NCBI RefSeq assembly: GCF_024300625.1
Contig: NZ_CP101322.1
Location: 1,315,992 to 1,379,991 of the forward strand
Reading direction: 5' to 3'
Length of the DNA stretch: 64,000 nt
From: Halovivax gelatinilyticus
GTDB lineage: Archaea; Halobacteriota; Halobacteria; Halobacteriales; Natrialbaceae
This document shows, piece by piece, positions 8,192-28,424 of the stretch. The first letter of the stretch is position 1. Each line of letters begins with the position of its first letter. The translations under genes were made by a program, and so were the position numbers. Below the pieces are notes generated by a model, which saw only the letters and a list, made by a program, of their open reading frames with translations, was not told the DNA's origin and did no database searches.

Positions 8192-11100
8192 ATGCGACGA
8201 GCGGAGAGAACCGAAGAGACAGAGGCGCTCATCAAACGGATAGACGTGCTCGATCGCCTCTGTGAGTCGTCCGCGTACATCCGCGACCTCGTCGACGATA
8301 CGGGACAGTCCCGCTCGACGATCAACCGAGCGGTCGCCGAGTTAAAAGAAATCGATCTCGTCGACACCAGCGACGAGGGGATCGAAGCGACGATCGCGGG
8401 ACGGCTCGCTCGCGACCGCCTCGACTCGTTCCTCAGCGAATTCGACGACGTGCTCACCGCGGAAGCCGTCCTCGATCCGCTGGCGCCGTCGGTCGGCATC
8501 GAACCCGCGGTCGTCGCCGGCGGAGAGGCGATGCTAGCGACCGGCCCGACGCCGTACCGGCCGCTCGAACGGGTTCACGACGACCTGAACGACGCCGAGA
8601 GCTATCGAGCGCTCGTTCCGGCGCTCGAGGATCCGCGCACGGTTCGGCTCCTGTACGAGCACGTCATCACCGACGGAAACCCGGCCGAACTCGTGGTGTC
8701 ACCCGAGGTGTTCGAGTCGCTGCGCCAGGAGTTCCCGCGCCGGATGGCGGCGATGGCCGACACGAACGACTTCTCGGTGCTGGTCGGCCCCGTTCCGCCG
8801 TACGGCCTCGCAACACTCGTTCGCGAACCGTCGCTCGAGTCGAATCCGCCCTCGGACATCGCTCATCTCGTCGTGATGAACGAACACGGGGGCGTTCACG
8901 GCGCGCTCGTAAACGAGTCAACGGCCGCAGTGACCTGGGCCGAATCGCGGTACGCGGCAGTCCGCGAGGAAGCGATCGATCGAACGGACGCGTTGATCGA
9001 CGACGCGGACGACGTGCAGTGCACCCGCGCATCCGTCGGCCGCTCGCCGACCGGGTTGACGCTTCCGGTGTCGCTCGAACGCGAGGGATTCATCGAGGTG
9101 GACGAGTCGTACTTCCGCGAGGAACCCGTCGCCGACCCGGCGACGGCGTGGCGCACCGGCCTCTCGCTCGGGGAGGTCCACACCGGCTACGCCGTCGCGA
9201 GGACGTATCCGAACTCCGAGAGTGATGCCGGAATCGCCGATCGTTTCTTCGGCGACGACAACCCAACCGATGGCCGCTCGACCGACGGCCACCACCCAAC
9301 CGACCTCGCAACGGCCGTCTCGGATGGACTGGTAACCGGATCGAACAGCCTCGTCCTCGGCCCGCCGGGATCGGGCAAGAGTACGGTCTGCAAACAGGTC
9401 GCCTGCGAGTGGTACGCCGCCGACCGCGGCCCGGTCCTCTATCGCGAGTACGACCGCGGCCGATCTGTTTCGTCGATCGACGATCTCGCCGCGGCCGTCG
9501 CTGACAGCGGTGGGCACGCGCTCGTCATCGTCGAAGACGCCGTCCGCGCGGACGCCAACGCCATCTTCGGGGCGATCGAACGGCTCGAAGACTGCGACGA
9601 CGTCAGCGTCCTGCTCGACGCTCGTGAAAGCGAGTGGCGCGAGTACGCGAGTCGCTCGGCCGTCGCGAGCGAGCTGGCGGTGGCGCACGTCCCTCCGCTA
9701 CGAGCGTCGGACTGTGAGCGCCTCGTCGACCACTTCGAACGGACGGTCGGAAAAACCGTCGACGTGTCAGCCGACCGACTCTGGTCGACGGTACGCGGGG
9801 AGGCTTCCGGCGGCCATAGTAACGAACTGCTTCGATTGATCCACCGACTGGCACCATACGCCGATCCGCTAGCCCACGAACCGACCGCCCTCGAAGAAGC
9901 CGTCGGGTCCGTGTCAGATGCGCTCGATGGTGACGAGGTGACGCTGTCAGTCAGCATTCTCGCGAACGTACTCAACGCCGCTGGCGTCGACATCGATCGG
10001 GGGTTGTTCTACTCGATCGTCGAGGCCGATCGGTTCGACGCCGTCGACGCAGCCATCGACCGGCTGGAGGGTGTCGTCCTCTTCGCCCGCGAGGACGGTA
10101 GCTACCGAACCGTCCACGAGGAGTGGTCGACGGCGTTCTTAGCTCATCGCATCGACGCTGGCGGCGAGAAGGCGGCCGCTCAACGGTTCGGCGCCGCGGT
10201 GAGCGCGCTGCTGGCGCTCGCGGACGACCCAGACCACCGTCGCGAGATCGTCGAGCACCTCGACGGCCAGCGGACACTCGCTGCGGTCACCGACGATCCG
10301 GCGTCCTGGGTCGACGAAACCGTCGAAGCGGTGTACGCAATCGGGCGACGCCGGTCCCAGCTCGCGGCGCTGTTCGGCGACGGCTCCCGAGACGCTGTCG
10401 AACTCCCGGACGCGTGTTCGGACGCGCTGAGCGGTCAGCGACCGATCTGGCTCGGCCGGCTCTTCCTCTCGGGCGGGTACTACGATCGGGCCGAACGCGC
10501 GTTCGAACGGGTGAACGACGAATCGATCGATCGATCCGGCGAGCGCCTGCTGGGGCTCGCTCGGGTCTCGATCAACCGAGGCGAGTACGACGAAGCGCTC
10601 GCTCACTGCGAGGCGTGTCTGTCGCTGGTAGACGGCGAGGGTCGGGAGGTAATTCGCGCCCGGGCGCAGCTCCGTCTCGGGGAGGTGCTGACCGAACGCG
10701 GCGAGTACGACGACGCGAAAACGAACTACGACGCGGCCCTGGAGACATTCTGCGCCCGTGGACTCCGCGGGTGGGAGGCTAGCGCCCGGCACGGGCTTGG
10801 CACCGTCGCAGGGAAACGAAGCGAGTTCGACCGGGCCACCGAACAGTACGAAACGAGCCTCCGGCTCGAGCGCCAGATCGGCGACCGTCGCGGCGAAGCA
10901 GAGACCATCACTTGCCTTGGGAACGTCGCCTGGAAACGTGGGGGCGTCGACCGGGCGTCCGAGCTGTTCGAGCGAAGCCTCGAACTCAGGCGAGAACTCG
11001 GCGATCGTGCAGGGGTGGCAACGGCCCTCGGTCATCTCGGGGTGATCGAAGGCCAGCGAGGGAACCACGAGCGAGCCGCCGAGTTTCACGAGCGGAGTCT

Positions 11101-12121
11101 CGAACGTAAACGAGAACTCGGCGACCGCTCCGGTGAAGCGAAAACCCTGCACAATCTCGGACACCTCGAGAGTCAACGAGGGAACTTCGACCGCGCTGTC
11201 GAGTATTACGAACAGAGTCTAGAGCGTAAACAGGAACTCGGCGACCGCCCGCTGTTGGACTCGACGCTCAACAATCTCGGGACGATCGAGGGACGACGGG
11301 GCGAGTTCGACCGCGCGGCCGAACTACACGAACGAAGCCTCGCCCTCAAGCGAGAACTCGGCGACCGACACGGCGAGGCGTTCAGCCTCCACAATCTCGG
11401 TCAGGTCGAACACCGCCGAGGCAGCTTCGACAGGGCGAGCGAACTCCACGAACAGTGCGTCGCACTGATGGACGAGCTCGACAACCGTCCCGGGACGGCT
11501 CCGTCACTGGGCAATCTCGGGTTAATCGCCGCGCGGCGAGGTGAGTACGATCGGGCCCAGGAGTACGGCGAGCGATGTCTCGACGTCGCAACGGAGGCCG
11601 GCGATCCCGAACAGATCGCTGCGGGCCACCGGTGTCTGGGCGAAATCGCCCTCCGTACGGAAGCCTACGATCGAGCGCGAACCCACTTCGACGCCGCTCT
11701 CGATGCCCTCGATAGCGAGGACGGGCTGATCGCTCTTCAGGTCCGTCTGGCCAGCGCCAGGCTCTCGCTCGCCCTCGGCGAGATCGACCGGGCCCGATCG
11801 ATCGCACGCGCAGTCTACGGAGCGAGTGAAACGATGACAGCGGTATACTGGGTCGGCCGGAGTAGTCAGCTTTTAGGGCGAATCGAGTCCGACGCTGGGA
11901 CGATCGACACTGCTCGCGAACACCTTCTCGATGCCCTCGAAACGTTCGAGCGAATCGGTGCGCTTTACGACGCACTGCGGACGCTGGAGTGGCTCTTCGA
12001 GACGGGCGCCGATTGCAGTGAAACCGCCGATGCGTGGCGGGAACGGGCCCGGGTGTTACTGGCTGACGCACCCGAGTCGGTGCGCGAGTGTCATAGGGAG
12101 TTGGGCGAAGAGTGCTCCTAA
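8192..12121 (+). CDS. HTH-FilR1 regulator fused to a STAND-like P-loop NTPase and TPR array
   Basis: 1309 residues. Residues about 15-70 form a winged helix-turn-helix (IRDLVDDTGQSRSTINRAV). Residues about 85-260 resemble the FilR1/DUF1724 effector domain that follows such HTH domains in haloarchaeal regulators. A P-loop LVLGPPGSGKST lies near 386-397, and a Walker B-like HALVIVEDA near 440, followed by LLDARESEW. A helical stretch follows (about 500-740), then tetratricopeptide repeats to the C-terminus, the clearest with an exact 40-residue period and the signature NLG...RG.FDRA.E..E.SL. This is the architecture of STAND signal-transducing NTPases: sensor repeats, nucleotide switch and effector, with a DNA-binding effector here. 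A TATA-like AAGTATAAG lies about 35 nt upstream of the ATG. It stands alone and diverges from the surface-protein gene. Whether it controls that gene, or acts in stress response or defence, is unknown. Confidence 0.85.
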   Translation: MRRAERTEETEALIKRIDVLDRLCESSAYIRDLVDDTGQSRSTINRAVAELKEIDLVDTSDEGIEATIAGRLARDRLDSFLSEFDDVLTAEAVLDPLAPSVGIEPAVVAGGEAMLATGPTPYRPLERVHDDLNDAESYRALVPALEDPRTVRLLYEHVITDGNPAELVVSPEVFESLRQEFPRRMAAMADTNDFSVLVGPVPPYGLATLVREPSLESNPPSDIAHLVVMNEHGGVHGALVNESTAAVTWAESRYAAVREEAIDRTDALIDDADDVQCTRASVGRSPTGLTLPVSLEREGFIEVDESYFREEPVADPATAWRTGLSLGEVHTGYAVARTYPNSESDAGIADRFFGDDNPTDGRSTDGHHPTDLATAVSDGLVTGSNSLVLGPPGSGKSTVCKQVACEWYAADRGPVLYREYDRGRSVSSIDDLAAAVADSGGHALVIVEDAVRADANAIFGAIERLEDCDDVSVLLDARESEWREYASRSAVASELAVAHVPPLRASDCERLVDHFERTVGKTVDVSADRLWSTVRGEASGGHSNELLRLIHRLAPYADPLAHEPTALEEAVGSVSDALDGDEVTLSVSILANVLNAAGVDIDRGLFYSIVEADRFDAVDAAIDRLEGVVLFAREDGSYRTVHEEWSTAFLAHRIDAGGEKAAAQRFGAAVSALLALADDPDHRREIVEHLDGQRTLAAVTDDPASWVDETVEAVYAIGRRRSQLAALFGDGSRDAVELPDACSDALSGQRPIWLGRLFLSGGYYDRAERAFERVNDESIDRSGERLLGLARVSINRGEYDEALAHCEACLSLVDGEGREVIRARAQLRLGEVLTERGEYDDAKTNYDAALETFCARGLRGWEASARHGLGTVAGKRSEFDRATEQYETSLRLERQIGDRRGEAETITCLGNVAWKRGGVDRASELFERSLELRRELGDRAGVATALGHLGVIEGQRGNHERAAEFHERSLERKRELGDRSGEAKTLHNLGHLESQRGNFDRAVEYYEQSLERKQELGDRPLLDSTLNNLGTIEGRRGEFDRAAELHERSLALKRELGDRHGEAFSLHNLGQVEHRRGSFDRASELHEQCVALMDELDNRPGTAPSLGNLGLIAARRGEYDRAQEYGERCLDVATEAGDPEQIAAGHRCLGEIALRTEAYDRARTHFDAALDALDSEDGLIALQVRLASARLSLALGEIDRARSIARAVYGASETMTAVYWVGRSSQLLGRIESDAGTIDTAREHLLDALETFERIGALYDALRTLEWLFETGADCSETADAWRERARVLLADAPESVRECHRELGEECS
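10800..11530 (+). repeat. 120-nt periodic TPR-coding repeats
   Basis: The word CAATCTCGG recurs at exact 120-nt spacing (ending at about 11160, 11280, 11400 and 11520), and GAACTCGGCGACCG-type words recur at the same period upstream. The units encode 40-residue TPRs, longer than the canonical 34-residue TPR and like kinesin-light-chain-type repeats. The near-identity of some DNA blocks suggests fairly recent unit duplication. Confidence 0.85.
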
Positions 12122-15111: not shown

Positions 15112-16674
15112 GTTTCAATTCCGTTGTGGATTTTCTCCCTGCTGCGACCGATCAGCAACATCCTCGCCTCGTGAAACGCCATTGTTTCAATTCCGTTGTG
15201 GATTTTCTCCCTGCTGCGACCGTCGGAGGTGCCACGTTGCCACCAGCGATAGAACCGTTTCAATTCCGTTGTGGATTTTCTCCCTGCTGCGACCCGTTCG
15301 CGTACGAGTCGAGCACCAACGTCTCGACGTTTCAATTCCGTTGTGGATTTTCTCCCTGCTGCGACATGGTAGCGGTTCCAGGTCGCGGCGGCCGAAGCCC
15401 GGTTTCAATTCCGTTGTGGATTTTCTCCCTGCTGCGACACTCCTTCCTCGAGCTCTTGTCCTTCGAGACCGGAGTTTCAATTCCGTTGTGGATTTTCTCC
15501 CTGCTGCGACACGACCCTCACGGCAACGAATCTCACACGGAGGACTAGTTTCAATTCCGTTGTGGATTTTCTCCCTGCTGCGACTCGACGATAACCGCAA
15601 CCAGTTCACCGTTGATATCTTGTTTCAATTCCGTTGTGGATTTTCTCCCTGCTGCGACCGACGAGAAGGCGGTCGAACCGCATAGCATAGGCAGTTTCAA
15701 TTCCGTTGTGGATTTTCTCCCTGCTGCGACATGCTGGGTATGAAGTTCTCACCCTCCTCTAAAAGTTTCAATTCCGTTGTGGATTTTCTCCCTGCTGCGA
15801 CTCATCAGGCCGAGAATGAACAGCGCCACCAGCAGGAGTTTCAATTCCGTTGTGGATTTTCTCCCTGCTGCGACCGAATCGTCGAGACGGACTACCACGC
15901 GGACGACGAAGTTTCAATTCCGTTGTGGATTTTCTCCCTGCTGCGACGTTCCGGGTGGCCTTCCGGGTATACCTGATAGAGTTTCAATTCCGTTGTGGAT
16001 TTTCTCCCTGCTGCGACTCGAGCACGAAGCCATCCCGGTTATCTCGGGCAACGTTTCAATTCCGTTGTGGATTTTCTCCCTGCTGCGACGTGCCGTCAGA
16101 CGCACGGATCGACTGGCGCCAGATCGTGTTTCAATTCCGTTGTGGATTTTCTCCCTGCTGCGACATTCCGGATCGTGGCGCAACTCCTGTGCTACAACGT
16201 GTTTCAATTCCGTTGTGGATTTTCTCCCTGCTGCGACCCGCGCGCGAGGTGGGCCTGTCCGACCCTTACAGTAGTTTCAATTCCGTTGTGGATTTTCTCC
16301 CTGCTGCGACAACGCGAGAAATTTACAGACTTCCTCGTGTGGAACGTTTCAATTCCGTTGTGGATTTTCTCCCTGCTGCGACAGCACTCGGGGCAGCCAC
16401 GCGTTTCACAGTGTGTCGGTTTCAATTCCGTTGTGGATTTTCTCCCTGCTGCGACCTCAGCGTCCTGTTCATCGTTTCAGGGTTAATCGGGTTTCAATTC
16501 CGTTGTGGATTTTCTCCCTGCTGCGACCCGACACATCGCAAGGATGGTTGACAGTGGGAGATATTGTTTCAATTCCGTTGTGGATTTTCTCCCTGCTGCG
16601 ACGGTTCGCTGCCGGTTGGGCGGTCCACTGCTACCGCGTTTCAATTCCGTTGTGGATTTTCTCCCTGCTGCGAC
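15112..16674 (-). CRISPR. CRISPR array 1, subtype I-D: 22 repeats, 21 spacers
   Basis: A 37-nt repeat recurs every 71-75 nt from 15112 to 16638 with 34-38 nt unique spacers. In the transcribed direction (minus strand) it starts GTCGCAGCAGGGAG and ends ATTGAAAC, the usual 3' handle. This and the conserved leader at its high-coordinate end set the orientation: newest spacers near 16.6 kb, oldest near 15.1 kb. I saw no degenerate repeat. Because the repeat contains no stop in several frames, long open frames run through the array; they are not genes. Confidence 0.98.
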
Positions 16675-16789
16675 TGGGGGTGAATATGGGGCTATAGGCC
16701 CCATAATTGTTTCTCCTGGCTCGAAAATCGACCTGTGCTTCGTGGACTGGGGCTGTACAGCGACTTCATAAGGGTCCACGAAGAGTAGT
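16675..16789 (-). promoter_or_regulatory. Leader of CRISPR array 1 with promoter and inverted repeat
   Basis: It is closely similar to the leader of array 2 over about 105 nt, sharing GTACAGCCCC, CCACGAAGC, GGTCGATTTTCGAGCCAGG, AGAAACAATTATG and ATATTCACCCCC next to the first repeat. An inverted repeat CTTCGTGGAC/GTCCACGAAG (16738-16747 and 16774-16783) flanks the TATA-like CTTATGAAG with a 26-nt spacer. A second small palindrome, GGGGC-CTATA-GCCCC, lies nearer the repeat. These are likely sites for transcription start, a regulator and spacer integration. Confidence 0.85.
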
Positions 16790-17440
16790 TCAAGGGAACT
16801 GCGATGCGAGGTACAGTCGGCCACTGAGCGTGATTTCGACGAGCTTGGATCGATCTTCGGTGTGGCACGATACTAATCCCTCGGATTCGAGTTGGTTGAC
16901 GTGCCGAGTGATCGTACTCTTCGCACTTTCCCGTCGCTCTTCGAGTGATGAAATCGACACCGGTTGCCCTTGGTCCGCTACGGTGATCAGCGTCTGTTTC
17001 GCACCACGGGAAACGTTCGTCGGGAGCGTGGGTACTTCCCACTCCCGAACCTGTCCATCGATATCGCTGTAACCCAAGATGCCAGCGATATTTTGTCCAT
17101 GCGCAATTGTGGCAACGATCAGTGGAACGAGTACGTCACGGGCACCCCCTCCAAAATTGACTATCACCGAGCCGTCCGCAGCCGTCAAAAGGTCGCTGCA
17201 CTGAATTACGGCCGACGAAAAGTCATCGTGCGGAATCCGTTCGACGTCAACCGAGATTTCCGGTTCGATTTCGTGCAATAGTTTCTCGACATCTGCAATC
17301 GCATCCGCCGCGCGATCGGTATCGGTCTCCTCGCCGGGACGAACCAGCACAACAAGGTCTCCCGCCTCGATATCTTGTTTTAGAATCGCCCGCGTGACGC
17401 TGGTCGTGTTGAACCCGATCGGTGAAACGAACGTCCGCAT
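16790..17440 (-). CDS. csa3: Csa3: CARF-domain CRISPR regulator
   Basis: 216 residues. The N-terminal CARF domain begins MRTFVSPIGFNTTSVTRAIL and has a conserved NFGGGARD turn (about 95-102). The C-terminal winged helix (about 150-215) contains SSLEERRESAKSTITRHVNQL. Known Csa3 proteins bind DNA at CRISPR leaders or cas promoters, and the CARF domain can bind cyclic oligonucleotides. The gene is divergent from cas6 across a 124-bp shared promoter region, and its stop lies at the edge of the array 1 leader. The ATG at 17440 is very close to a TATA-like element, so the transcript may be leaderless. Confidence 0.9.
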   Translation of the reverse strand: MRTFVSPIGFNTTSVTRAILKQDIEAGDLVVLVRPGEETDTDRAADAIADVEKLLHEIEPEISVDVERIPHDDFSSAVIQCSDLLTAADGSVIVNFGGGARDVLVPLIVATIAHGQNIAGILGYSDIDGQVREWEVPTLPTNVSRGAKQTLITVADQGQPVSISSLEERRESAKSTITRHVNQLESEGLVSCHTEDRSKLVEITLSGRLYLASQFP

Positions 17441-17564
17441 TTGCCTGAATTTCGCGTCTTGGACTCATAATATTGCAGGATATTGCAACGGACCCGTTCC
17501 TGTTGCAGTACAAATAGGTCGGTGGCTTTATGACCATTGCACATCATTTTCTGCCATCCGTCGC
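17441..17564. promoter_or_regulatory. Divergent csa3/cas6 promoter region
   Basis: It contains a direct repeat ATATTGCAGG-ATATTGCAAC at about 17470-17490 and a further TTGCAGTAC, candidate operator words. A TATA-like TATTATGAG serves csa3, and GCTTTATGAC at about 17525 serves the cas operon about 40 bases before the cas6 ATG. It lacks the GTCCACGAAG arms found in both CRISPR leaders. Confidence 0.5.
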
Positions 17565-18428
17565 ATGGCAACACAGAAACCAAAGGGATCCCAGGTTCGC
17601 CGGGTCGAAATCTGCGTTCGACCCACAGCTCGATTTCCTGTCCCGAAGTCAGACGGGTATCCGCTCTACAGTGCACTTCTACACATACTCGAGCGAGCGA
17701 ACGAATCCGTGAGCCAGCAGGTTCACGACTCCCAACTCGGAAGCCTCCACTGCAGCGGCCTTCAAGGCCGATTCGGTGGAAGCGATCGAGCCCACCACAA
17801 GAGCCTCCTCCCGAACGAGGAGTACACCATCCGGCTCGGAATCGTCGATCCCGACGACGAGGCAGTGTTCCAGGCACTCGTGAAACAACTCGTGCTGGAA
17901 GGCGAGGAAATCGCGTTGACCGACGGCACGTTGCGGGTCGAATCCTTCGAAAGCCGGAACGTGAGTCACGAAGAACTACTCACACGCGCGGGGGAAATGG
18001 ATGATCCATCAGTGACGATCGATTTCCAGACCGCGACGTGTATCAAGGAAGCTGGAGAGGTTACCACGGCGTTTCCACACCGATGGGCCGTACTGAAGTC
18101 GTTGCTCGGAAAGTGGAATCGGTCGTGTCCGGACGATCTGGAGTTGGAACTGGATCGTGAGGCGGTGTTGGCGAATGTGATCGAAAAGCCGAACGTAGAC
18201 ACACTCGATACACATAGCGTCTTGGTGAACAGAGTTCGAAACGAGGACGGAGAGACACGGAATCTGTTTCTTCAGGGATTTACCGGTGAGGTCACGTTCG
18301 AGTTCAAAGACGCGAGTGAGAGTCTGGAGAATGCCGTTGTTGCGGTGGCGCAACTTGGGGAGTACAGTGGCGTAGGGAGTGCAGTGGCTAGAGGGTGTGG
18401 ATCAGTTAGTGTGAAGGTGTTAAATTAA
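17565..18428 (+). CDS. cas6: Cas6 pre-crRNA endoribonuclease
   Basis: 287 residues from ATG at 17565. Cas6 cuts the long CRISPR transcript within each repeat, leaving the ATTGAAAC handle. Seen here: a tandem ferredoxin-like layout, an early RRVEICVRPTARFPVP strand, and the C-terminal glycine-rich loop GEYSGVGSAVARGCGSVSV typical of Cas6. It is the first gene of the cas operon and its stop overlaps the cas10d ATG by one base. Most I-D loci place cas6 after cas5, so this order is a variant. Confidence 0.9.
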   Translation: MATQKPKGSQVRRVEICVRPTARFPVPKSDGYPLYSALLHILERANESVSQQVHDSQLGSLHCSGLQGRFGGSDRAHHKSLLPNEEYTIRLGIVDPDDEAVFQALVKQLVLEGEEIALTDGTLRVESFESRNVSHEELLTRAGEMDDPSVTIDFQTATCIKEAGEVTTAFPHRWAVLKSLLGKWNRSCPDDLELELDREAVLANVIEKPNVDTLDTHSVLVNRVRNEDGETRNLFLQGFTGEVTFEFKDASESLENAVVAVAQLGEYSGVGSAVARGCGSVSVKVLN

Positions 18429-21400
18429 TGAGTGATGGCTCAGACGAAGAGCAAAGTGGGCTCAATGACTTCAGCAGCGCTGATAGAGGTGAACCAAATG
18501 ATCCGAAGATAAGAGAAAAGGCAAAGTCTGGCGTCGCGTCCCTGTCAGGGGAAATATTCGAGAATCCTGACGAGGCATTCGCTCCCGACGAGACAGAGTC
18601 TGACGAGCAGGAAGCGCTCAACGAGGTGTTCAAGGAGTACCTCTCCGAGATAGACGGGAAGCTCATTGAGGCTGGTTGGCTATATCTCCCGAATAAGAGC
18701 ACCGAATACGGGAAAGTCGACCAATCAATGCTCAACCACACGCGGAACCTTGTATTCTTCCTCCACCGGCTGGCTACTCAAGCAAAACCAGCCGGTCTCA
18801 GACCGATTTCTCCGAAAGAGTTGCGCCACCTCATCGCTCTTGCGGTCATTCATGACTTCCACAAACTCCGTGATGAAGACGGGAATCGGTCAGAGCGATT
18901 CAACATTACAATTGATGAACTAGAACCTTTCGTTCAAGAACTCGGATTAAAGGAGTTCAGTGCAGACCCTTCGGAAGCAGATTCGGCCCTCGAGCTGCGA
19001 GATTTCCGTTCCTGTGCTGTTGATCACCACGCGACCGACAATGCTAAACCGACGAATGTGACGATTCGGTGGGAAGAATACCGACCGTTCATCCGATTAG
19101 CAGACGGGATGGCATCCTCGACGACACCAGAAAAAGCGGCGGATTCGAGGGCACAAAAGCAGTTTCGGGAATGTTTCCCAGGTGCAGACGTTGAACTGGC
19201 TCATCACCGAATTGATCACGTGAGTGGAATATTCACAAGCTTGATCAATACTGCTGTCAATGAGCACCTTGAAGAAGAATATGATCATACGCTTCTGACT
19301 ATCTATCAAGATGGGTGTGTATATCTTGCGCCACAAAATCGATTTCCTAAGCTCACTGACCAGTTTGTAAATGCGATTTACAACCAATTGAGCAAGAACA
19401 TCAGTGACTTTCATCCCACGTACAGTAATACAGATCTTCTTGCTGAAGACATCGGCACGGTAAATCTCGGGCATTATAGCCTAAACCCCTCTCAGTTCTT
19501 TTACGCTGGTGCACAACGAGTGACACAAGCAATTATAAAAAAAGGTGTTAATGATGGCTCTATTGATGAAGAGCCAACTGAATCGGCTCTTAAATCGATG
19601 GAATTGTTGGAGGATGATCTTGATAGTGAATTATACAAAACAAGCCAGTTGTATGGAATGGCACGATTTGTAAGTACCATCCGAAGAGGAATTCTTCCAG
19701 CATTCCTTAATGACTCAGGGATGTTATCTGATGAGGGACTTCGTGCGACCGGTAACGTGCTCAATCTTCCTGAGGACGTTGCAGAAGAACTAATCTCCCT
19801 ACCTTCGGATGTTAAAGATCGGCTTGTGAGCGGTAATAAGTGGGAATTTTCATACGCCTTTGGACAAGCTCTACTGGAAAAGCACGGTCAAGGAAAGAAA
19901 ATCAGTGAGGGTGAATCGAAGATCATTGAAAATATAGAGGATGGGCTCGATTCGATCGCAGACGAGACGTACTGGGTGGAGACTCTTCGAGAGAGCTATT
20001 CTGGTGGATACCGCTCAGAAGTGGTTTCCTTCATCCAAAAACATCTCCGAATTGGTGAAGAATCACAAGGGGAAGCAGGCGCACTTACAGACACTTACAA
20101 CCAGTATGCAGAAAGCTCTCGTCGTGGACGCATCTGCTCACTCTGTTCTGGTGGCCTAAGTGATACACACAACCTTGGTGATATGCAGCCATCTGACGAC
20201 ATCACCATGATTCGTGGAGGGTTCACAAACCGCGATCCGATTGGGAGTGGTAAACGAGATAACCGAGTGGTGTGTGTCCCTTGCCAAATCGAACTTTCGC
20301 TACGTGGTGCGGCTAGTAACAACCGCTACAATGGCCGACTATTCATTCACCTCTCACCAGATTACTTCTACACACCTTTTACATGGCGACTATTTAACCG
20401 GATCACCAACCAGTTTACCGGCGATAATCGTGTTCGAATTGGTCGACTTGCTGAGGCGGTTTCGGATATTGAAGAGCCGGAAAAATTCAATCAAGTGCTG
20501 ACTGAACTCACACGAGAGGATGGAGGTCGGCCAATGATTGACTCACTTTCCGGCGGTTTTGATCAAGAGGCGCAGTATGGAGCACAAGTTGTCGGGTATT
20601 TCAAAGAGTTGTATGATGAGGGCACAGGAAATGATACTGAGTTCCAGTTCTTCGGGACTTTCCTCGCCCTTGCAATCAGTTCCTACACGGGAATGCGAGT
20701 GTATCTCAGTGCATCTCCGATCCCGGAGATGCGATCGCGTGACTTCCCAGAGTTCGTAAAGATCGGAGGTAGCTTCACTCAAGTAACATCGTTCTATGGA
20801 GATAGCGTTCCACTCTCAGAATTGCAAGTACGACTTCAGTCAGCAGCTGCCCTGATCAAGCTAGGTCACGCACTTCAGGGAAAAACCCGTAAGGACTCGC
20901 TGTTCGCGAAGTACCTTCGGGTGACTCGAAACGAGCTGCTCCCGGGGTCGTATCTGCTCAAACGAGCAGCCCAATCCTCAGATGAGGGGCCGTACATTCC
21001 CGCCCTGATGAGGTACGCAGTCACGCTGGATGAGCAAGCCGGAATCAAGCAGTACGGTTCAAATATGAGTGATACACCACACAGCCGCATCACACAACTC
21101 GCCGATCTCGCCTACGATGCAATCCGTCCCGCAAGCGGACATGGGCGAAAGCCACATCGCGTCGAACGAGTCTTTCGCGAGAGTGTGAAGGCGGTCTCGA
21201 AAACAGGAGAACAGCTGAGCCGAGACGACTACGTGATGCTCGTCTCGGGTAGACTTCAAAAACGACTAGTTCCGGAGAAAGTGAAAGCTGTTTACCCAGT
21301 CAGTGCAGAAATGTCGAACGCTGGCACACCATTACAGGAACGCATTGAGGAGTATTCCGAATTCTTCGTCGACGAGATCCTCTATGGTATCGCCAACGGC

Positions 21401-21538
21401 CGTCCCTCGCAGCTGAAACGGCTCAAGAACAACCTTGCCGATGGATTCTTTGGTGCAACGCTCAGGGCAGAATCGAAGTTTTACGAAGAGCGTGACCAAC
21501 AGAACGAGACCACCGACACGAAAACGGAGGCGGAGTAA
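18428..21538 (+). CDS. cas10d: Cas10d (Csc3), large subunit of the subtype I-D complex with HD nuclease
   Basis: 1036 residues. In subtype I-D the HD nuclease is carried by Cas10d rather than Cas3. The N-terminal HD residues are visible: H104 (LNHTRN), H142-D143 (VIHDFHK), H200-H201 (AVDHHAT) and D226 (RLADGM). A zinc site follows near 570 (CSLCSGG) and 614 (CVPCQ). The remaining palm-like region has no GGDD motif, so no cyclic oligonucleotide synthesis is expected. Codon use is clearly more A/T-rich in the middle of the gene than in neighbouring chromosomal genes, consistent with horizontal transfer. It overlaps cas6 and is followed by csc2 after 3 bases. Confidence 0.92.
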   Translation: MSDGSDEEQSGLNDFSSADRGEPNDPKIREKAKSGVASLSGEIFENPDEAFAPDETESDEQEALNEVFKEYLSEIDGKLIEAGWLYLPNKSTEYGKVDQSMLNHTRNLVFFLHRLATQAKPAGLRPISPKELRHLIALAVIHDFHKLRDEDGNRSERFNITIDELEPFVQELGLKEFSADPSEADSALELRDFRSCAVDHHATDNAKPTNVTIRWEEYRPFIRLADGMASSTTPEKAADSRAQKQFRECFPGADVELAHHRIDHVSGIFTSLINTAVNEHLEEEYDHTLLTIYQDGCVYLAPQNRFPKLTDQFVNAIYNQLSKNISDFHPTYSNTDLLAEDIGTVNLGHYSLNPSQFFYAGAQRVTQAIIKKGVNDGSIDEEPTESALKSMELLEDDLDSELYKTSQLYGMARFVSTIRRGILPAFLNDSGMLSDEGLRATGNVLNLPEDVAEELISLPSDVKDRLVSGNKWEFSYAFGQALLEKHGQGKKISEGESKIIENIEDGLDSIADETYWVETLRESYSGGYRSEVVSFIQKHLRIGEESQGEAGALTDTYNQYAESSRRGRICSLCSGGLSDTHNLGDMQPSDDITMIRGGFTNRDPIGSGKRDNRVVCVPCQIELSLRGAASNNRYNGRLFIHLSPDYFYTPFTWRLFNRITNQFTGDNRVRIGRLAEAVSDIEEPEKFNQVLTELTREDGGRPMIDSLSGGFDQEAQYGAQVVGYFKELYDEGTGNDTEFQFFGTFLALAISSYTGMRVYLSASPIPEMRSRDFPEFVKIGGSFTQVTSFYGDSVPLSELQVRLQSAAALIKLGHALQGKTRKDSLFAKYLRVTRNELLPGSYLLKRAAQSSDEGPYIPALMRYAVTLDEQAGIKQYGSNMSDTPHSRITQLADLAYDAIRPASGHGRKPHRVERVFRESVKAVSKTGEQLSRDDYVMLVSGRLQKRLVPEKVKAVYPVSAEMSNAGTPLQERIEEYSEFFVDEILYGIANGRPSQLKRLKNNLADGFFGATLRAESKFYEERDQQNETTDTKTEAE

Positions 21539-21541
21539 CCA

Positions 21542-22531
21542 ATGCTACCAGAATCAGTCACTACGGCGCTAGAGAGCGGGACCGTTCCGATCGACGAAAT
21601 GACGAACACACCAGGAACCAACTACACGACGATCCTGGTTCTCAGAGAACTCGAAAGTCACGCAATCTTTACGACGAATGGCGAGGACGCTGACATCGCC
21701 TCGCTCTCGGTCGTTGGAGATGGCGCAAGTATCGAGTACTCGCCGGGAATCATGTTCATGCGTAAACAAACCGGTAGCGACCGCCGCATGGGCAAGGCCA
21801 TCCAGCGCGAGCTGCTGAATTACGAGGAAGACGACTCGATGGAGGTAAACAACATGAACCCCCGTTCAGTCGAGTCGGCCCTCTACGGGAGTGCAGCAAG
21901 CGGCGACGATGACGTCGATATTGGCGTTACCTCGCGAGTAATGTACGATACGGCGTTTAGCGTACGGGACGCAAGCGCATGCATCGACGAGAAGTTCCAG
22001 AACGCACCAGGTGAGGATTACGCGAAAGGCTCCCGTTCGACCATCCGTGAGCCGGACTTCTTCGAACCGGGTTCGCTCTTCCCGTGTGCAATTACGCTCC
22101 GAGACGCGACGCCTGCTGAAGTGGCGTTCGTCGTTGCAATCACGAAACGAAACAAGCGCTACGGTGCAGCAACGACTCGGCTTGGCCGCGTCAAAAACCA
22201 TATCCTCGGCGTGTACACCGGCGACGAGGAAGGCCCTTCGAACCGCGAACTTACGGCAAACGTCATCACGTCGTTCGCTGCAGAGAGCGATTATACGTTA
22301 AGTGACGTCGTTCAGTCCCCAGCGCTCGATATTGCGGAGGCGAGTGAATACGTCCAAGATGCGTACGACGCTGCTTGCACGGAAGGGGTTGCACAGGATC
22401 CTGTCGATCAGGCAGTTGTGAACGAACTTGTCGAAATGGCTGCAGATGACGAACTTGGGGCTATTATGGAAGCCCAGCAACCGCATTCCGCGGAATTCAT
22501 CGATAACGCGATAAAAACTGACGGGGACTGA
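21542..22531 (+). CDS. csc2: Csc2 (Cas7 of subtype I-D), crRNA-backbone subunit
   Basis: 329 residues. Csc2 polymerises along the crRNA spacer. Family signatures: LRELESHAIFTTNGE near residue 36-50, a GSDRRMGKAIQREL segment near 78-91, and a mid-protein RNA-binding region. It follows cas10d with no promoter space, so it is read as part of the operon. Length fits the family. Confidence 0.92.
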   Translation: MLPESVTTALESGTVPIDEMTNTPGTNYTTILVLRELESHAIFTTNGEDADIASLSVVGDGASIEYSPGIMFMRKQTGSDRRMGKAIQRELLNYEEDDSMEVNNMNPRSVESALYGSAASGDDDVDIGVTSRVMYDTAFSVRDASACIDEKFQNAPGEDYAKGSRSTIREPDFFEPGSLFPCAITLRDATPAEVAFVVAITKRNKRYGAATTRLGRVKNHILGVYTGDEEGPSNRELTANVITSFAAESDYTLSDVVQSPALDIAEASEYVQDAYDAACTEGVAQDPVDQAVVNELVEMAADDELGAIMEAQQPHSAEFIDNAIKTDGD

Positions 22532-22541
22532 CGGGGTTGCC

Positions 22542-23288
22542 ATGCAGGTCATCGAAGCAACGCTCACGACGCACGGAAAAGTTGGATTCGCCTCACGAGA
22601 GGTGGGTCGAATGACCGATACAGATCCGTGTATCCTGAACACAGCGTTGCACTACGCCCTCGGCCTCGCGAGTGGACGGTACGTGGACGTGATTCACCAG
22701 CCAACCTACATCGAAGACACCGCCGATGTAGTCGACGATGTCTATGTCACCCCCGCGGCCCCCGCTCGTATCGAACGGCAAGGGACGGCTCGGACGGAAT
22801 ATCTGACCACGAATCGAAACGCTCGAAGCGACACCTACGCGACGCCCAACTACCCGGCCACTGACGATCCAACAGGTCGAGCTGACAAGAATCTCCCGAC
22901 GTTCGAGCGGGAACGGGCGTTAGCACCCGAGAATGCGTTCCGTTTCTACGTCTTTCCGTACGGGCAAGAAGCGAGCGAAGTATCTACACGACTTCCATCG
23001 TATATCCGACTTGGGAAGAAGCGAGGGAAGGGACATGTCAGTTATCGAATTGTCGACGCCGAGCGCCGATCGGGAACGTTCAATCTCGGACATCCACTGA
23101 GCGTATACGATCACGACGCTATGCCGACAGGTGGCGTCGTGATGAAGCAGATGCAGCCGACACCGGTCTGGTTCGAAGGGGAGTTCGACACTGACCACTA
23201 CGCTATTGAGTCCCCATTTCCGAACGAGTCGAGGATCCGTTATCCGGCCGGGGCGAAGTTTCTCGCAACAAAACGGGACGATGTCTAA
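22542..23288 (+). CDS. csc1: Csc1 (Cas5 of subtype I-D), 5'-handle-binding subunit
   Basis: 248 residues. Csc1 caps the crRNA 5' handle in the I-D complex. Seen: an N-terminal VIEATLTTHGKVGFASREVG strand-turn, YALGLA, and a C-terminal RLGKKRGKGHVSYR segment typical of the family. Its last codons overlap the start of cas3 by 8 bases (ATGTCTAA), indicating coupled translation. Confidence 0.9.
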   Translation: MQVIEATLTTHGKVGFASREVGRMTDTDPCILNTALHYALGLASGRYVDVIHQPTYIEDTADVVDDVYVTPAAPARIERQGTARTEYLTTNRNARSDTYATPNYPATDDPTGRADKNLPTFERERALAPENAFRFYVFPYGQEASEVSTRLPSYIRLGKKRGKGHVSYRIVDAERRSGTFNLGHPLSVYDHDAMPTGGVVMKQMQPTPVWFEGEFDTDHYAIESPFPNESRIRYPAGAKFLATKRDDV

Positions 23289-25434
23289 CCACGATTCAGT
23301 CTCGTTCCAGCTTGCTGGGCTTGGACTTCGGACGTATCCGGGTGAGTATCCGGTGGAAGGTATCACACCGTATCGACACCAGTGGGCCCTCCACGATGCG
23401 CTTACATCCCGTGAACCCGGGATATTCGTGAACGATGCCCCCACCGGCGGGGGAAAAACGCTCTCCTGGTTGGCACCGGTAATTTCAGCAGGGCTCTCGA
23501 CAGTCGCTATCTATCCAACAAACGCACTAATCGAAGACCAACAGAGAAATATTTCTGAGTTATTGAGTGATGTCGATGGTGGGGACGACTGTCAGCTACT
23601 GGCCGTCACTAGTGAAACGCTCCAGAACGAATATGCAGAGCAGTTTCCCGATGCCAGTTCTAACGGCGAACGGCTTTCATCCCTACTGAGACAGGCATTT
23701 TCAGGCCGGAAGCCCGTCGTTCTCCTCACAAACCCAGACATATTCGTATTGCTTCGTCGAGAAATGTACCATGAGCGAATTGGGCAGATCAAACAATTTG
23801 AAGTGGCCGTCGTTGACGAATTTCACCGAGCAACACGAAAAGAGCGGAATACGATACTGTTCCTCCTCGACGAGATGTACGATACCGACGAGTCTATATG
23901 TCGATTGAACCACCTCGTTTTCCTGAGTGCAACATCAGACGTGCGCCTCGAACGCCAGTTCGAAGAGGCGATGGTTGCGCCATATTATCGAGTCGACGAC
24001 GTTGGGTGGCGAACGGATCCGCATCCCGCAATCACAGAAGAAACGCCATCAACGATATCATTTGGACCGGGTGAATTACCCGCAGCATACCGCGCGGTCT
24101 TACCACCTGTAGATTTGGTAATCGAGCCAGCACCGACGTTCGGGACCGCGGCAGAAGTGCTTGACAACGTCGAAGTGGTGCTGGAGCGATTGGCCACCGG
24201 TCGGACGGTTATCATGCTCGATGGGGTTCACGAAATCGACCGCGTGTATGATCTCTTACACGGTTCGGATCTCACTCGCGTTGAACGGATTGACGGATTT
24301 CACCGCGAGGACGTGCGGGAGAAAATCGACACGTTCGACACCTTAGTGAGTAACTCTGCCGTTGAGGTCGGTGTCGACTTCGATGCGGACCAGATCGTAT
24401 TCTCGGGCCACGATGCTGCAAGCTTCTTCCAGCGACTTGGACGGCTTCGCACCCGTCCTGACCGGTCTGATGCGTTTGCATACGCCCCTCCCTATCTCTT
24501 TCACGATCTTGAACCCCTTTCAGACTCTCTCGACGGACAATGGGTTGATCGCTCAGAATTCGAAAAACGGGTCAAATCGGCCTATGTCGATTCGTCCACA
24601 CCCGCTTCGTTTGACTGGCGGTACTCCGCTGTAGAGGCCTACGATCACGTCGAAGAGCGAGTAGAAGGTGCACCAGCGGATGACCAACTGGCCATTCGAA
24701 AGGCTGGCTGGTATCGAATTGAAAGTCACTTTTTCAACGAGGACAAGGGCGGCCTCTCCGAAAACGACCTCCAACGTATCTACGAGGTGGCTGATTCAGC
24801 ACTTCTCAATACGCTGAAAACGTATCGGGGGGAAAGCGTCCAGACACTCGTTTACGATCAGCGTTCACAGAGCGTTCAAACGTACAATCTCCCGTACCTT
24901 CTCCGCCATTCTGACGTTTCATTCTATACCCGAGATACCTTTTTAACTCATCTACCAGATGGGCTTGTTGATAAAGTGTCAAGATTGGAACCGTACAGTA
25001 GCGGTTACTGCATTTACAGAGGTGAATACGACGGGCAATCAGCCGGTGGAGATGCTGATCAGACCGCTGGAAGGCTTTTCACGTATAAAGCAACGGGGGA
25101 ACTCTATAGCCTTCTGAGCGATTGTTCTCGAGATATCCGTACCCCAAAGGTTTGCACTGGTCTAGAGGTCGAAGTGACGCCGAGCGTCAGGGGTGTTGAT
25201 GTACTAAAGGATGAACTCTCTACCGACCAGATCCTTTGTTATCCGGTCGAAGGGCATGTCTCACAAATTCAGAACCAGTACTCACTCGGTTCATTTGGGT
25301 TCATTTATCCACTTCTCTATTCCGAAGGCGACGCAGCAGTGGCATTCGGCCACGACGCCCTGTATCTCCATTGTCGCGTTCAAGACAGAATACAAGCAGA
25401 ATCTAACACGTTCGACGAGGTGCTCGATTTTTGA
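23281..25434 (+). CDS. cas3: Cas3' helicase of subtype I-D (no HD domain)
   Basis: 717 residues from ATG at 23281, preferred over an in-frame codon 75 bases upstream that would lie inside csc1. Superfamily 2 motifs: motif I APTGGGKT near 50-58, motif II DEFH near 179-182 (DEFH in place of DEAD/DEAH), motif III SATSD, and motif VI FQRLGRLRTRPDR near 380-393. There is no HD nuclease domain, as expected in I-D where Cas10d carries it. It unwinds target DNA after recognition by the crRNA complex. Confidence 0.9.
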   Translation: MSNHDSVSFQLAGLGLRTYPGEYPVEGITPYRHQWALHDALTSREPGIFVNDAPTGGGKTLSWLAPVISAGLSTVAIYPTNALIEDQQRNISELLSDVDGGDDCQLLAVTSETLQNEYAEQFPDASSNGERLSSLLRQAFSGRKPVVLLTNPDIFVLLRREMYHERIGQIKQFEVAVVDEFHRATRKERNTILFLLDEMYDTDESICRLNHLVFLSATSDVRLERQFEEAMVAPYYRVDDVGWRTDPHPAITEETPSTISFGPGELPAAYRAVLPPVDLVIEPAPTFGTAAEVLDNVEVVLERLATGRTVIMLDGVHEIDRVYDLLHGSDLTRVERIDGFHREDVREKIDTFDTLVSNSAVEVGVDFDADQIVFSGHDAASFFQRLGRLRTRPDRSDAFAYAPPYLFHDLEPLSDSLDGQWVDRSEFEKRVKSAYVDSSTPASFDWRYSAVEAYDHVEERVEGAPADDQLAIRKAGWYRIESHFFNEDKGGLSENDLQRIYEVADSALLNTLKTYRGESVQTLVYDQRSQSVQTYNLPYLLRHSDVSFYTRDTFLTHLPDGLVDKVSRLEPYSSGYCIYRGEYDGQSAGGDADQTAGRLFTYKATGELYSLLSDCSRDIRTPKVCTGLEVEVTPSVRGVDVLKDELSTDQILCYPVEGHVSQIQNQYSLGSFGFIYPLLYSEGDAAVAFGHDALYLHCRVQDRIQAESNTFDEVLDF

Positions 25435-26048
25435 GTTCGCCAACAACCGTCGGACAACGAGACGAACTCGTTCACGTTAGCGCGTTGAATGAATACGTGT
25501 ACTGTCCACGTCGGTTCTACTATCAGCGATATCACGACGAAATCGGTACTCCGTACGAACTCATTGACGGTCGATCGAAACACCAGAACCAATCAAACAG
25601 AGGGGGATGGGTGACTGAACGTTACTTCAGATCCGACGAGCTCAAACTACACGGGAAAATTGACCTGATTGAATCTGACAGTGAGGTTCTTACCCCAGTC
25701 GAGCGGAAGCGTTCCGAAAGTGGGCAATACTATCCGAGCGACGAGGTGCAACTCACAGGATACTGCATGTTACTCGAGGATGCACTCGACGAACCGGTGA
25801 ATGTTGGCTACATTTACCTTTATTCGACCGATACCCGACACGCGATTAGGATCAAAGAACGGCATAGAGAAACAGTTCGTAAGATCGTGTCGAGAATTAC
25901 AGAGATGACTGTTAATTCCCTTCCCCCATTCACCGACAATCCAAAAAAGTGCGAAGCCTGCTCAGCACGCCAGTACTGCATGCCATACGAAACAGCGCTA
26001 CTCGAACCCGAGAAAGCCCAAGGGACTGGCTGGGAGGACCGCGTATGA
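25431..26048 (+). CDS. cas4: Cas4 Fe-S RecB-like exonuclease (spacer acquisition)
   Basis: 205 residues from TTG at 25431, overlapping the cas3 stop. Cas4 trims and orients prespacers with Cas1-Cas2. The four Fe-S cysteines are C25 (YCPRRFYY) and C174, C177 and C183 (CEACSARQYC). RecB nuclease residues: D78 (GKID), E91 and K93 (VERKR), Q107 and Y111 (QLTGY). Its TGA overlaps the cas1 ATG (ATGA). Confidence 0.93.
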   Translation: MSSPTTVGQRDELVHVSALNEYVYCPRRFYYQRYHDEIGTPYELIDGRSKHQNQSNRGGWVTERYFRSDELKLHGKIDLIESDSEVLTPVERKRSESGQYYPSDEVQLTGYCMLLEDALDEPVNVGYIYLYSTDTRHAIRIKERHRETVRKIVSRITEMTVNSLPPFTDNPKKCEACSARQYCMPYETALLEPEKAQGTGWEDRV

Positions 26049-27055
26049 AGTCTGCGGAGGGAATGTTCGATGAATCGATCGTCTACGTGACGAGGCAGGG
26101 TGCTCAGATCCGGACCGGCGAGGGACGAATCATAGTCTTCGACGTCACGCTAGACGAAGACGACGATAGTGATCCGGAGTTGGCCTCCTACCCAATCGAG
26201 AAGGTGGATACGATAAACGTCTTCGGCGGAGTCAACTTCACGACGCCTTTCATCAAGACGGCGAACGAGTCGGGGATCGTCCTCAACTACTTCAGCACGA
26301 ACGGGAAGTATCGCGGAAGCTATCGTCCAACGAAGAACACGATCGCCGAAATTCGACGGGCACAGTACGGATTGTCGAGACAGGAGGAACTCGAAATCGC
26401 GAAGTCGATGATTTCCGGAAAGATCCGGAATGCTCGCACTCTCCTCTCTCGAAAGGGTGTTCACGGGACGGATGTTCTCAGAGATCTCGGAGTGCGCGCG
26501 ACGAAAGCTATGACAAAAGACGCTCTCCGCGGGACGGAAGGCGAAGCTGCAGAGCGCTACTTCTCCCGACTGGACGAGACCCTTATTGACGGCTGGACGT
26601 TCGAAAAGCGGACGACACGCCCGCCGGAAGACCACATCAATTCGCTACTGTCACTTACCTACGTCTTCGTCAAGAACGAGGTGCTTGGCGCGCTCTATCA
26701 GTACAATCTTGATCCGTTCCTCGGCGTGTTACACGCCGATCGGCATGGCCGGCCCTCGCTCGCGCTCGACCTGCAAGAGGAGTTCCGGCCGATATTCTGT
26801 GATGCGTTCGTTACGCGGCTGATCAACCGCGGTGTGATAACACACGATGACTTCAACAAGGACAATCGATTGGCCGATGACGCGTTCAAGACGTACCTTG
26901 GAAAATTCGACGAGTACATGCAAGAGGAGTTCACACACCCATATTTCGAGTACAACGTCTCGAGGCGGAAGGCAATTCGTCAGCAGGCGATCTTACTTCG
27001 AAAAGCAATCACTGGTGAACTCGATGGATACCATCCTTTGACATTCGATCGATAA
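26045..27055 (+). CDS. cas1: Cas1 integrase
   Basis: 336 residues from ATG at 26045, overlapping the cas4 stop. Cas1 inserts new spacers at the leader-repeat junction. Metal-binding catalytic residues visible: E165 (LRGTEGEAAERYF), H230 (GVLHADRHG) and E245 (DLQEEFRP). Length and motifs match the family. Confidence 0.97.
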   Translation: MKSAEGMFDESIVYVTRQGAQIRTGEGRIIVFDVTLDEDDDSDPELASYPIEKVDTINVFGGVNFTTPFIKTANESGIVLNYFSTNGKYRGSYRPTKNTIAEIRRAQYGLSRQEELEIAKSMISGKIRNARTLLSRKGVHGTDVLRDLGVRATKAMTKDALRGTEGEAAERYFSRLDETLIDGWTFEKRTTRPPEDHINSLLSLTYVFVKNEVLGALYQYNLDPFLGVLHADRHGRPSLALDLQEEFRPIFCDAFVTRLINRGVITHDDFNKDNRLADDAFKTYLGKFDEYMQEEFTHPYFEYNVSRRKAIRQQAILLRKAITGELDGYHPLTFDR

Positions 27056-27057
27056 CA

Positions 27058-27330
27058 ATGCGTCTCGTCATTACGTACGACATCAGCGACGACAAGAATC
27101 GGCGTCGAATCTATCGAACACTCCAGCGATACGGGGCCTGGCGACAGTACAGCGTATTCGAGGTCAACGTCTCGAAAACGGAACGCGTCGAACTGGAAGA
27201 TGAGTTGAAAAAACACGTCGAAGAATCCGATGACGATCGAATCAGAATCTACCGTCTTTGTCAGTCGTGCCAGGGTGACGTGACCGATATCGGTGCAGGA
27301 CCACCAGACGAACAGTCCAACATTGTGTAG
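27058..27330 (+). CDS. cas2: Cas2, spacer-acquisition partner of Cas1
   Basis: 90 residues with a ferredoxin-like fold start MRLVITYDISDDKNRRRIY; D8 is the conserved acidic residue. It follows cas1 after 2 bases and ends the operon, directly before the array 2 leader. Confidence 0.96.
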   Translation: MRLVITYDISDDKNRRRIYRTLQRYGAWRQYSVFEVNVSKTERVELEDELKKHVEESDDDRIRIYRLCQSCQGDVTDIGAGPPDEQSNIV

Positions 27331-27444
27331 CTGGTCTTCGTAGACCATTATAAAGGAGGTGTACAGCCCCGGTCCACGAAGCGCGGGTCGATTTTCGAGC
27401 CAGGAGAAACAATTATGAGGCCTATAGCCCGATATTCACCCCCG
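27331..27444 (+). promoter_or_regulatory. Leader of CRISPR array 2 with promoter and inverted repeat
   Basis: TATA-like ATTATAAAGG at about 27347-27356 lies between the arms CTTCGTAGAC (27336-27345) and GTCCACGAAG (27372-27381), again with a 26-nt spacer; one arm has a single change from perfect symmetry. Downstream, the conserved leader words GGTCGATTTTCGAGCCAGG and AGAAACAATTATG run to ATATTCACCCCC at the first repeat. The GGGGC palindrome of leader 1 is partly broken here. Confidence 0.85.
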
Positions 27445-28424
27445 GTCGCAGAAGGGAGAAAACCCAGAACGGGATTGAAACACCATCCTCATCTTGTGGG
27501 TGTATATGGTCGAACCGTCGCAGAAGGGAGAAAACCCAGAACGGGATTGAAACTTATGGATCACCCCCTCAATATCACCTTCCGAGTGTCGCAGAAGGGA
27601 GAAAACCCAGAACGGGATTGAAACAATCATCGGTCCTGTCAAACCTACCCTCACCATGATGTCGCAGAAGGGAGAAAACCCAGAACGGGATTGAAACCGG
27701 GAGATTCTGGCCGTTCGAACCGCATTCGGGGCGTCGCAGAAGGGAGAAAACCCAGAACGGGATTGAAACTTGGTGACGCCACGGACAATATCAGTGCGGT
27801 CGTCGTGTCGCAGAAGGGAGAAAACCCAGAACGGGATTGAAACATTGCCTTCGGCTGATCGCCACGATCGCGCAAGGCGGTCGCAGAAGGGAGAAAACCC
27901 AGAACGGGATTGAAACACCAGTGCCCGGTCTGTGGATGGGCCGTTATCCGCTCGTCGCAGAAGGGAGAAAACCCAGAACGGGATTGAAACTATTAACGCA
28001 CTCATTGGCGATACGGTAGTGCAGGTCGCAGAAGGGAGAAAACCCAGAACGGGATTGAAACCCCTCGGTGATCCACAGGTCGTATTCGTCGGATCCGTCG
28101 CAGAAGGGAGAAAACCCAGAACGGGATTGAAACCGTTAACTCCAGAGGGAAGAGCGCCACCTCGTCGAGCGTCGCAGAAGGGAGAAAACCCAGAACGGGA
28201 TTGAAACAAGTAGAGTTTTCATTAAACCATGTAACTGGGTCAGTCGCAGAAGGGAGAAAACCCAGAACGGGATTGAAACTCTAAGAGCATGGCTGTTGCA
28301 TCGATGGGTTCGTGTCGCAGAAGGGAGAAAACCCAGAACGGGATTGAAACACGTCAGGGAACGATCGAAAGGACTCGTCTACCGGACGTCGCAGAAGGGA
28401 GAAAACCCAGAACGGGACAAAACG
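27445..28424 (+). CRISPR. CRISPR array 2, subtype I-D: 14 repeats, 13 spacers
   Basis: The 37-nt repeat starts GTCGCAGAAGGGAG and ends ATTGAAAC. Repeat starts run from 27445 to 28388 with 34-37 nt spacers. The last copy (28388) matches only the first 30 bases and then diverges (GGGACAAAAC instead of GGGATTGAAAC), which marks the leader-distal end and confirms the direction. The repeat differs from array 1 at positions 8, 19, 23 and 29. Confidence 0.98.

Follow-up and report, generated by a model that had tools for sequence, protein, structure and literature searches.

A conserved inverted repeat in haloarchaeal type I-D and I-B CRISPR leaders, a candidate recognition element for spacer integration

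In bacterial type I-E and I-F CRISPR systems, IHF recognises a leader site situated away from the leader–repeat junction and makes integration site-specific, but archaea are said to lack an IHF-like bender (PMC5815122, PMC10212523). Integration at the leader end in Sulfolobus is reported to require unidentified host factors (PMC5815122). The Csa3a protein of S. islandicus binds to a motif in the distal part of the leader (-143 to -94) whose mutation lowers acquisition (PMC9456107); at the cas1 promoter, Csa3a is described as requiring two sites and the stretch between them (PMC4333418). With regard to type I-D, leader motifs I–III raise acquisition in Synechocystis (Kieper 2019, as related in the review PMC10212523). 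Among haloarchaea, Haloarcula hispanica acquires spacers in the laboratory (PMC3936756), and in Hfx. volcanii locus C acquired no spacers while P1 and P2 did, the leader of C being different (PMC7521656). Leader-distal elements as a kind, and Csa3a sites in Sulfolobus, are therefore already known. In what follows, we describe a leader element of haloarchaeal type I-D arrays and compare it with these cases.

The haloarchaeal DNA analysed here, a stretch of 64,000 nt that we call the window, carries a complete type I-D CRISPR locus, its minus strand bearing array 1 and csa3, its plus strand the other cas genes and array 2 (Table 1). The cas6 and cas1d genes score under their NCBIfam cut-offs, and the start of cas6 is uncertain because its frame overlaps csa3. 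Two large proteins are also encoded in the window. One (8192-12121, plus strand; 1309 residues) combines an HVO_A0261-type HTH, a FilR1 middle domain, a STAND-type NTPase and TPR repeats, and is possibly an archaeal STAND sensor near the CRISPR locus. The other (1927-7674, minus strand; 1915 residues) has beta-helix/NosD and CARDB domains and is probably a secreted surface protein.

Table 1. Features of the type I-D locus in the window
Feature	Position	Strand	Remarks
Array 1 (CRISPR)	15112..16674	-	22 repeats, 37 nt each
Leader 1, ACCCCC block adjoining the repeat, at the leader–repeat junction	16675..16681	-	
Leader 1, putative BRE/TATA-like block GGAGAAAC..TTAT (likelier promoter of the array)	16703..16716	-	consensus as given in PMC4983044
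Leader 1, repeat-proximal arm	16738..16747	-	GTCCACGAAG in array-ward reading
Leader 1, interior	16748..16773	-	TATA-like TTAT and TGTACAGCCCC
Leader 1, repeat-distal arm	16774..16783	-	CTTCGTGGAC in array-ward reading
csa3 (CARF-wHTH regulator)	16790..17440	-	TIGR01884, 81.9 bits; stop 6 nt from the dyad
cas6-csc3(cas10d)-csc2-csc1-cas3'-cas4-cas1-cas2	17394..27330	+	open reading frames
Leader 2, repeat-distal arm	27336..27345	+	CTTCGTAGAC, one change
Leader 2, interior	27346..27371	+	TTAT 27348-27351; TGTACAG 27360-27366
Leader 2, repeat-proximal arm	27372..27381	+	GTCCACGAAG
Leader 2, BRE/TATA-like block	27403..27416	+	GGAGAAAC-AATTAT
Leader 2, ACCCCC block adjoining the repeat	27438..27444	+	
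Array 2 (CRISPR)	27445..28424	+	14 repeats, 37 nt each

A first-pass annotation of the window had noticed an inverted repeat with a 26-nt gap in both leaders, and its 10-nt arms are present exactly where they had been placed. In forward reading, leader 1 carries CTTCGTGGAC at 16738-16747 and GTCCACGAAG at 16774-16783, and leader 2 carries CTTCGTAGAC followed by GTCCACGAAG. The exact dyad, with gaps of 20-32 nt allowed, occurs once in the window and in none of 100 shuffles. Single arms with at most one mismatch show no clear enrichment in the window (14 seen against 9.4 expected, with at least 14 in 6 of 100 shuffles). The two leaders, which lie on opposite strands when read array-ward (leader 1 going with the minus-strand array), are homologous across all 109 nt, clear homology beginning at the outer arm. 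Since they are paralogous, the dyad that they have in common counts as one piece of evidence, and other genomes provide the real test.

To this end, 391 haloarchaeal genomes were screened for csc2, and the csc2 regions of the 40 genomes with a match were taken. Arrays were found on both sides in 29 of 41 csc2 loci, the window counted in, by an array finder that is blind to some divergent repeats, as in Halocatena. The I-D leader alignment started from 70 array-start rows. It leaves out one row of locus L059, three of L090 (one of them a secondary array) and two of L068, which is a second locus copy in the genome of L067, and includes nine added rows. Rows were moved to the true first repeat by one unit in L080 and by one base in L060, and L075 was re-anchored; six arrays without a leader of their own, or of another kind, were excluded from the I-D set. 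The resulting 73 leaders, 64 cut at the repeat and nine cut from the dyad, align gap-free over 112 columns, with a conservation that is biased upwards because leaders with lost or changed arms (one from genome G323, two from G129) are omitted. The alignment shows three prominent blocks. The dyad itself forms block A, with CTTTWTNAA and TGTACAG between its arms; block B is a BRE/TATA-like GAGAAA..TTTAT, whose TTWT begins 32 nt before the repeat in 55 of the 73 leaders; and block C, ACCCCCT, abuts the repeat.

A covariance model of the 112-nt leader gave 103 matches in 46 of the 391 genomes, namely 37 of the 40 csc2 genomes and nine others. Ninety of these matches are exactly 112 nt long, the others being of 109-115 nt or partial. 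Beyond the training set, 18 of 19 inspected matches adjoin at least one repeat-like unit (two adjoin one unit only, and two a decayed or unusual repeat), the exception scoring 27 bits. The three csc2 genomes without a match are G323, with a leader degenerate throughout, G365, with its locus on a 9-kb contig, and G129, in which repeat and leader are divergent and the arms changed. The dyad is thus strongly conserved upstream of other I-D arrays. Its arms are kept in leaders of csa3-bearing I-D loci, so that the outcome named by the first-pass annotation as refuting, a lack of such conservation, was not observed: 37 of the 40 csc2 genomes have a match and 39 of the 40 carry csa3. A loose pattern of 46 bp with up to three mismatches had been tried as well; it matched 219 of the 391 genomes and, among the matches listed, many had no other leader feature, so the covariance model was used instead. 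No exact copy of the I-D or I-B pattern was found in viral contigs, and blastn of leader 2 against phage records returned nothing.

Three Halocatena-like genomes (G183, G338 and G361; loci L093-L100, L147 and L148) hold up to nine leader copies each. Several copies precede dispersed arrays of small size whose repeat, CTTTCAACTGTGCCAGC..GGCATTGAAAC, is unusual, the leader being the same. Nine model matches each were obtained in the presumed Halocatena salina and in a congeneric genome, several of them at such small dispersed arrays with a different repeat. G183 has Halocatena-type leaders and cas1, but neither csc2 nor csa3 above the cut-off.

The symmetry of the arms was assessed over the 73 I-D leaders. 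Complementarity holds in 85.5% of cells, compared with 82.2 (sd 0.7) after shuffling; cells changed on both arms number 31 against 17.0 (sd 3.1); and the covariation score is 0.120 against 0.076, none of 500 shuffles reaching any of the three values. When the partner arm is slid by one to three columns, pairing drops to at most 46.2%. Two further measures, which are those least inflated by relatedness, show no excess: pairs in which both partners have changed (4, compared with 3.8 shuffled, reached by 328 of 500 shuffles) and further pair types (13 against 12.3, reached by 218 of 500). Because two of the five measures do not exceed the shuffles, the covariation is only suggestive, and our confidence in the leader-recognition reading developed below is slightly lowered.

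The departures from complementarity also bear on whether the arms act in RNA, as a hairpin or terminator ending, for instance, the upstream cas2 or csa3 message. In the window, the arms lie 5 nt past the cas2 stop and 6 nt past the csa3 stop, a position that would suit such a role. The non-complementary cells are, however, mostly not G-U (17 non-standard against 2 G-U at pair 8-45, 26 against 2 at pair 10-43), so an RNA stem suits the arms less well than do protein half-sites in which some letters are degenerate. Furthermore, the window leaders have no T run directly after the arms, and the dyad is also met at the dispersed small Halocatena arrays away from the csc2 locus. We regard an RNA role as very improbable. 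In general terms, the first-pass annotation is supported here, the dyad being linked to the leader and resembling paired protein half-sites.

With regard to type I-B, leaders were gathered around csh2 in 20 genomes, 26 contigs and four plasmid records, amounting to 50 loci, some records being of the same organism. Forty loci yielded 48 leaders (46 unique over 110 nt), the other ten having no usable array, and 43 of the 48 were aligned after three poor or shifted ones and duplicates had been left out. A two-arm profile trained only on I-D leaders scored 42 of these 48 classical I-B leaders above 99.9% of 2400 shuffled scores, and 24 of them above every shuffled score; six were missed. The placement was at -98 or -99 in 40 of the 42, and in the I-B alignment the arm columns are among the best conserved. 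The half-sites read TTCRTSGACC in I-D and TCCRTCGACC in I-B. In H. hispanica and in one of two Haloferax mediterranei I-B leaders, the arms are perfect over 11 bp (TTCCGTCGACC..GGTCGACGGAA); in the other Hfx. mediterranei leader, one of nine positions is mismatched. These leaders have the same core and spacing class as I-D, but differ by a GC-rich interior without TGTACAG, an outer arm one base longer and an arm 2 lying 10 bp nearer the repeat.

The geometry is almost fixed within each subtype. The cores are 32 bp apart in 66 matched I-D leaders, and 32 (18 leaders), 33 (26) or 34 bp (one) apart in 45 I-B leaders. A separation of 32-33 bp is about three helical turns, so that both arms would lie on one side of the DNA. 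The core of arm 2 begins at -73 in all 66 matched I-D leaders (the other seven have variant letters), and at -63 in 44 of 45 I-B leaders. Arm 2 is therefore 10 bp farther from the repeat in I-D than in I-B, or about one helical turn, a single coincidence to which we give modest weight. The arms are common to both subtypes but the junctions are not (ACCCCCT in I-D against GGGCATG in I-B), a combination that fits a common docking factor. In G014 and G065, which possess both systems, the I-B and I-D arms differ at one outer position, and this weakens the version in which a single host factor reads both. Cst2-type I-B genes are rare in haloarchaea (2 of 194 genomes) and were seen near arrays with I-D-like leaders in loci L133 (G130) and L145 (G174). 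In G130, the system beside the dyads is the Cst2-type I-B locus, its genes lying between two outward arrays with no adaptation gene in between.

The first-pass annotation had also placed a TATA region between the arms. The haloarchaeal promoter consensus is given as TTWT with CGAAA (PMC4983044). The TTAT between the window arms fits TTWT, which is found there in 66 of the 73 I-D leaders, but in none of the 73 does arm 1 contain the BRE core GAAA. Outside the dyad, GGAGAAAC-AATTAT makes a better BRE/TATA-like pair, with a TTAT that begins 32 nt before the repeat, and TTWT is kept in this block in 63 of the 73 leaders. The I-D array promoter is thus more likely block B, as judged from these sequence features. 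In an alternative reading, the dyad would be a transcriptional operator, with a regulator other than Csa3 sitting on both arms and controlling pre-crRNA synthesis. The promoter would then be either inside the dyad, with the TTWT of the interior as its TATA box and transcription starting close to arm 2, or the downstream BRE/TATA-like block. The inside version agrees with the TTWT frequency in I-D (where the inter-arm stretch has 45% GC) and disagrees with I-B, where the arms are kept, yet the interior has 64% GC and TTWT in only 10 of 46 leaders. Moreover, transcription does not obviously require a near-invariant distance to the repeat. On the other side, four genomes in which no cas1 matched have retained the arms, though not, as judged by eye, the downstream block. 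On balance, we consider an operator of this kind somewhat unlikely.

Which protein reads the arms is a related question, for which the first-pass annotation had named Csa3 as the obvious candidate. A Csa3 dimer, or a pair of dimers, would occupy the arms and regulate either transcription of the array or acquisition, with cyclic oligoadenylate as a possible signal. The csa3 gene adjoins leader 1 and was found in 39 of the 40 csc2 genomes, truncated in one of them; the recognition helix of Csa3 looks well conserved; and the Sulfolobus findings on the leader-distal motif and on the paired sites at the cas1 promoter point the same way. The comparison across genomes nevertheless speaks against Csa3, most strongly through the classical I-B leaders. 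Among the 20 csh2 genomes, 18 have no csa3 above the cut-off, G014 has csa3 in its I-D locus and that of G065 is truncated; 15 of 18 I-B leaders from genomes without csa3 above the cut-off carry the dyad according to the I-D two-arm profile. In the 50 csh2 loci, tblastn found no csa3 match at E 1e-3, cas1 being matched in 45. In addition, the dyad is present in five genomes (G130, G209, G317, G346 and G362) that lack csc2 and have no csa3 scoring above the curated cut-off; a tblastn search of contigs taken from them did not detect csa3 either. Absence of csa3 here means that it was not recognised, the TIGR01884 family search having missed the divergent csa3 of G323.

Other observations point in the same direction. 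On pHLAC01 of Halorubrum lacusprofundi (L058, L172), the csa3 match breaks off after residue 118 at the start of a transposase gene of ISH6 type (ISHla10), so that the DNA-binding wHTH half is gone; the arms nevertheless persist, complementary over 9 bp. Sequences upstream of csa3 show no enrichment of the arm (3 copies in 39 sequences against 9.6 expected), and, by eye, no link was seen between the arm variant T6A/A47T and the Csa3 recognition helix. Around 29 Csa3-like genes that are not part of I-D loci (L101-L119, L121-L130), neither the dyad nor, by a finder that can miss divergent arrays, a CRISPR array was detected over a distance of about 10 kb. The dyad is present at L120, a thirtieth such gene, which proved to be part of an I-D locus divided among contigs. 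G323 was dropped as a csa3-less I-D control after direct search had found its divergent csa3; its leader is degenerate throughout. Csa3 may bind the I-D version of the dyad, but seems not to be generally required for it, and we judge that the dyad is quite unlikely to be a Csa3 operator.

The reading that we prefer is that the dyad is a leader-recognition element common to haloarchaeal I-D and I-B arrays, bound by protein and aiding spacer acquisition. We hold it tentatively, its chances being near even; the dyad would be general to haloarchaeal leaders and would most likely serve spacer integration as a site of docking or bending. Each arm would be a half-site held by one half of a two-fold symmetric protein assembly, either the adaptation complex or a factor that I-B and I-D have in common. 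The bound protein would bend or bridge the leader and present the leader–repeat junction to Cas4-Cas1-Cas2, so that new spacers would be inserted at repeat 1; IHF, or the distal motif of Sulfolobus Csa3a, would be comparable in role. We infer binding, bending and a part in acquisition from a dyad that is conserved, lies at a near-constant distance from the repeat with a common spacing, and is present in I-B leaders without recognisable csa3. An acquisition role is favoured because the dyad is phased to the repeat, because it is shared across subtypes with differing junctions, and because of the Sulfolobus precedent. Being confined to leaders and phased to the junction is what the adjoining repeats and the 112-nt length of most model matches indicate, and I-B and I-D of the same lineage share the dyad in spite of their junctions.

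The distribution of cas1 does not fit as well. No cas1 match was found in G130, G209, G317 and G362, three of them drafts and G317 a single contig, 98% complete, and the arms are kept in all four; in G346, the fifth dyad genome with neither csc2 nor csa3, cas1 was found. Arms kept without a cas1 match are the main evidence against an acquisition role and fit transcription better, unless cas1 was lost recently. A narrower version of the recognition reading, in which one dedicated factor, neither IHF nor Csa3, would mark I-B and I-D leaders through a three-turn dyad on a face of the DNA that is constant with respect to the integration junction, and be the missing archaeal counterpart of IHF in acquisition, appears unlikely.

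The closest described case, the Csa3a motif of the S. islandicus type I-A system, resembles the haloarchaeal dyad in being leader-distal (-143 to -94 in S. islandicus, about -109 to -64 in the window type) and apart from a repeat-proximal element, in having a Csa3 family protein in the locus, and in its link to acquisition, which is proposed for the haloarchaeal dyad. The haloarchaeal dyad differs in occurring also in I-B leaders without recognisable csa3, and its arms differ in sequence from the Csa3a consensus reported in PMC4333418, save for a short TTCnT resemblance. Like the IHF site, it lies away from the junction, but it is a long-spaced dyad of two half-sites. The Synechocystis system is of the same subtype, but the leader examined has no such arms, and its locus has a WYL-domain protein and no annotated csa3. 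Of four I-D loci taken from outside the class, two had a detected array (G459 and G437). In G459, from the same phylum and with csa3 (L204), the 112-nt geometry, the TATA-like run and TGTAC of the interior, and block B are kept, and the arms are altered (TTTCCTGAAT/GTTCAAGATT, complementary at 6 of 10 positions); the leader of G437 has no such arms. G459 counts in favour of the recognition reading and G437 against it.

In the literature searched, no title or abstract opening described a dyad that haloarchaeal I-B and I-D leaders share, and it may be described in papers on leader motifs or Csa3a regulation beyond these. Mirror-image leader signals of this kind probably help to mark the insertion site of new viral memories. 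A dyad so well conserved across two subtypes supplies an exact DNA bait and a limited number of mutations with which to look for the factor that would steer new spacers to the leader end in archaea lacking IHF, and H. hispanica, which acquires spacers and carries a perfect dyad, is a tractable host.
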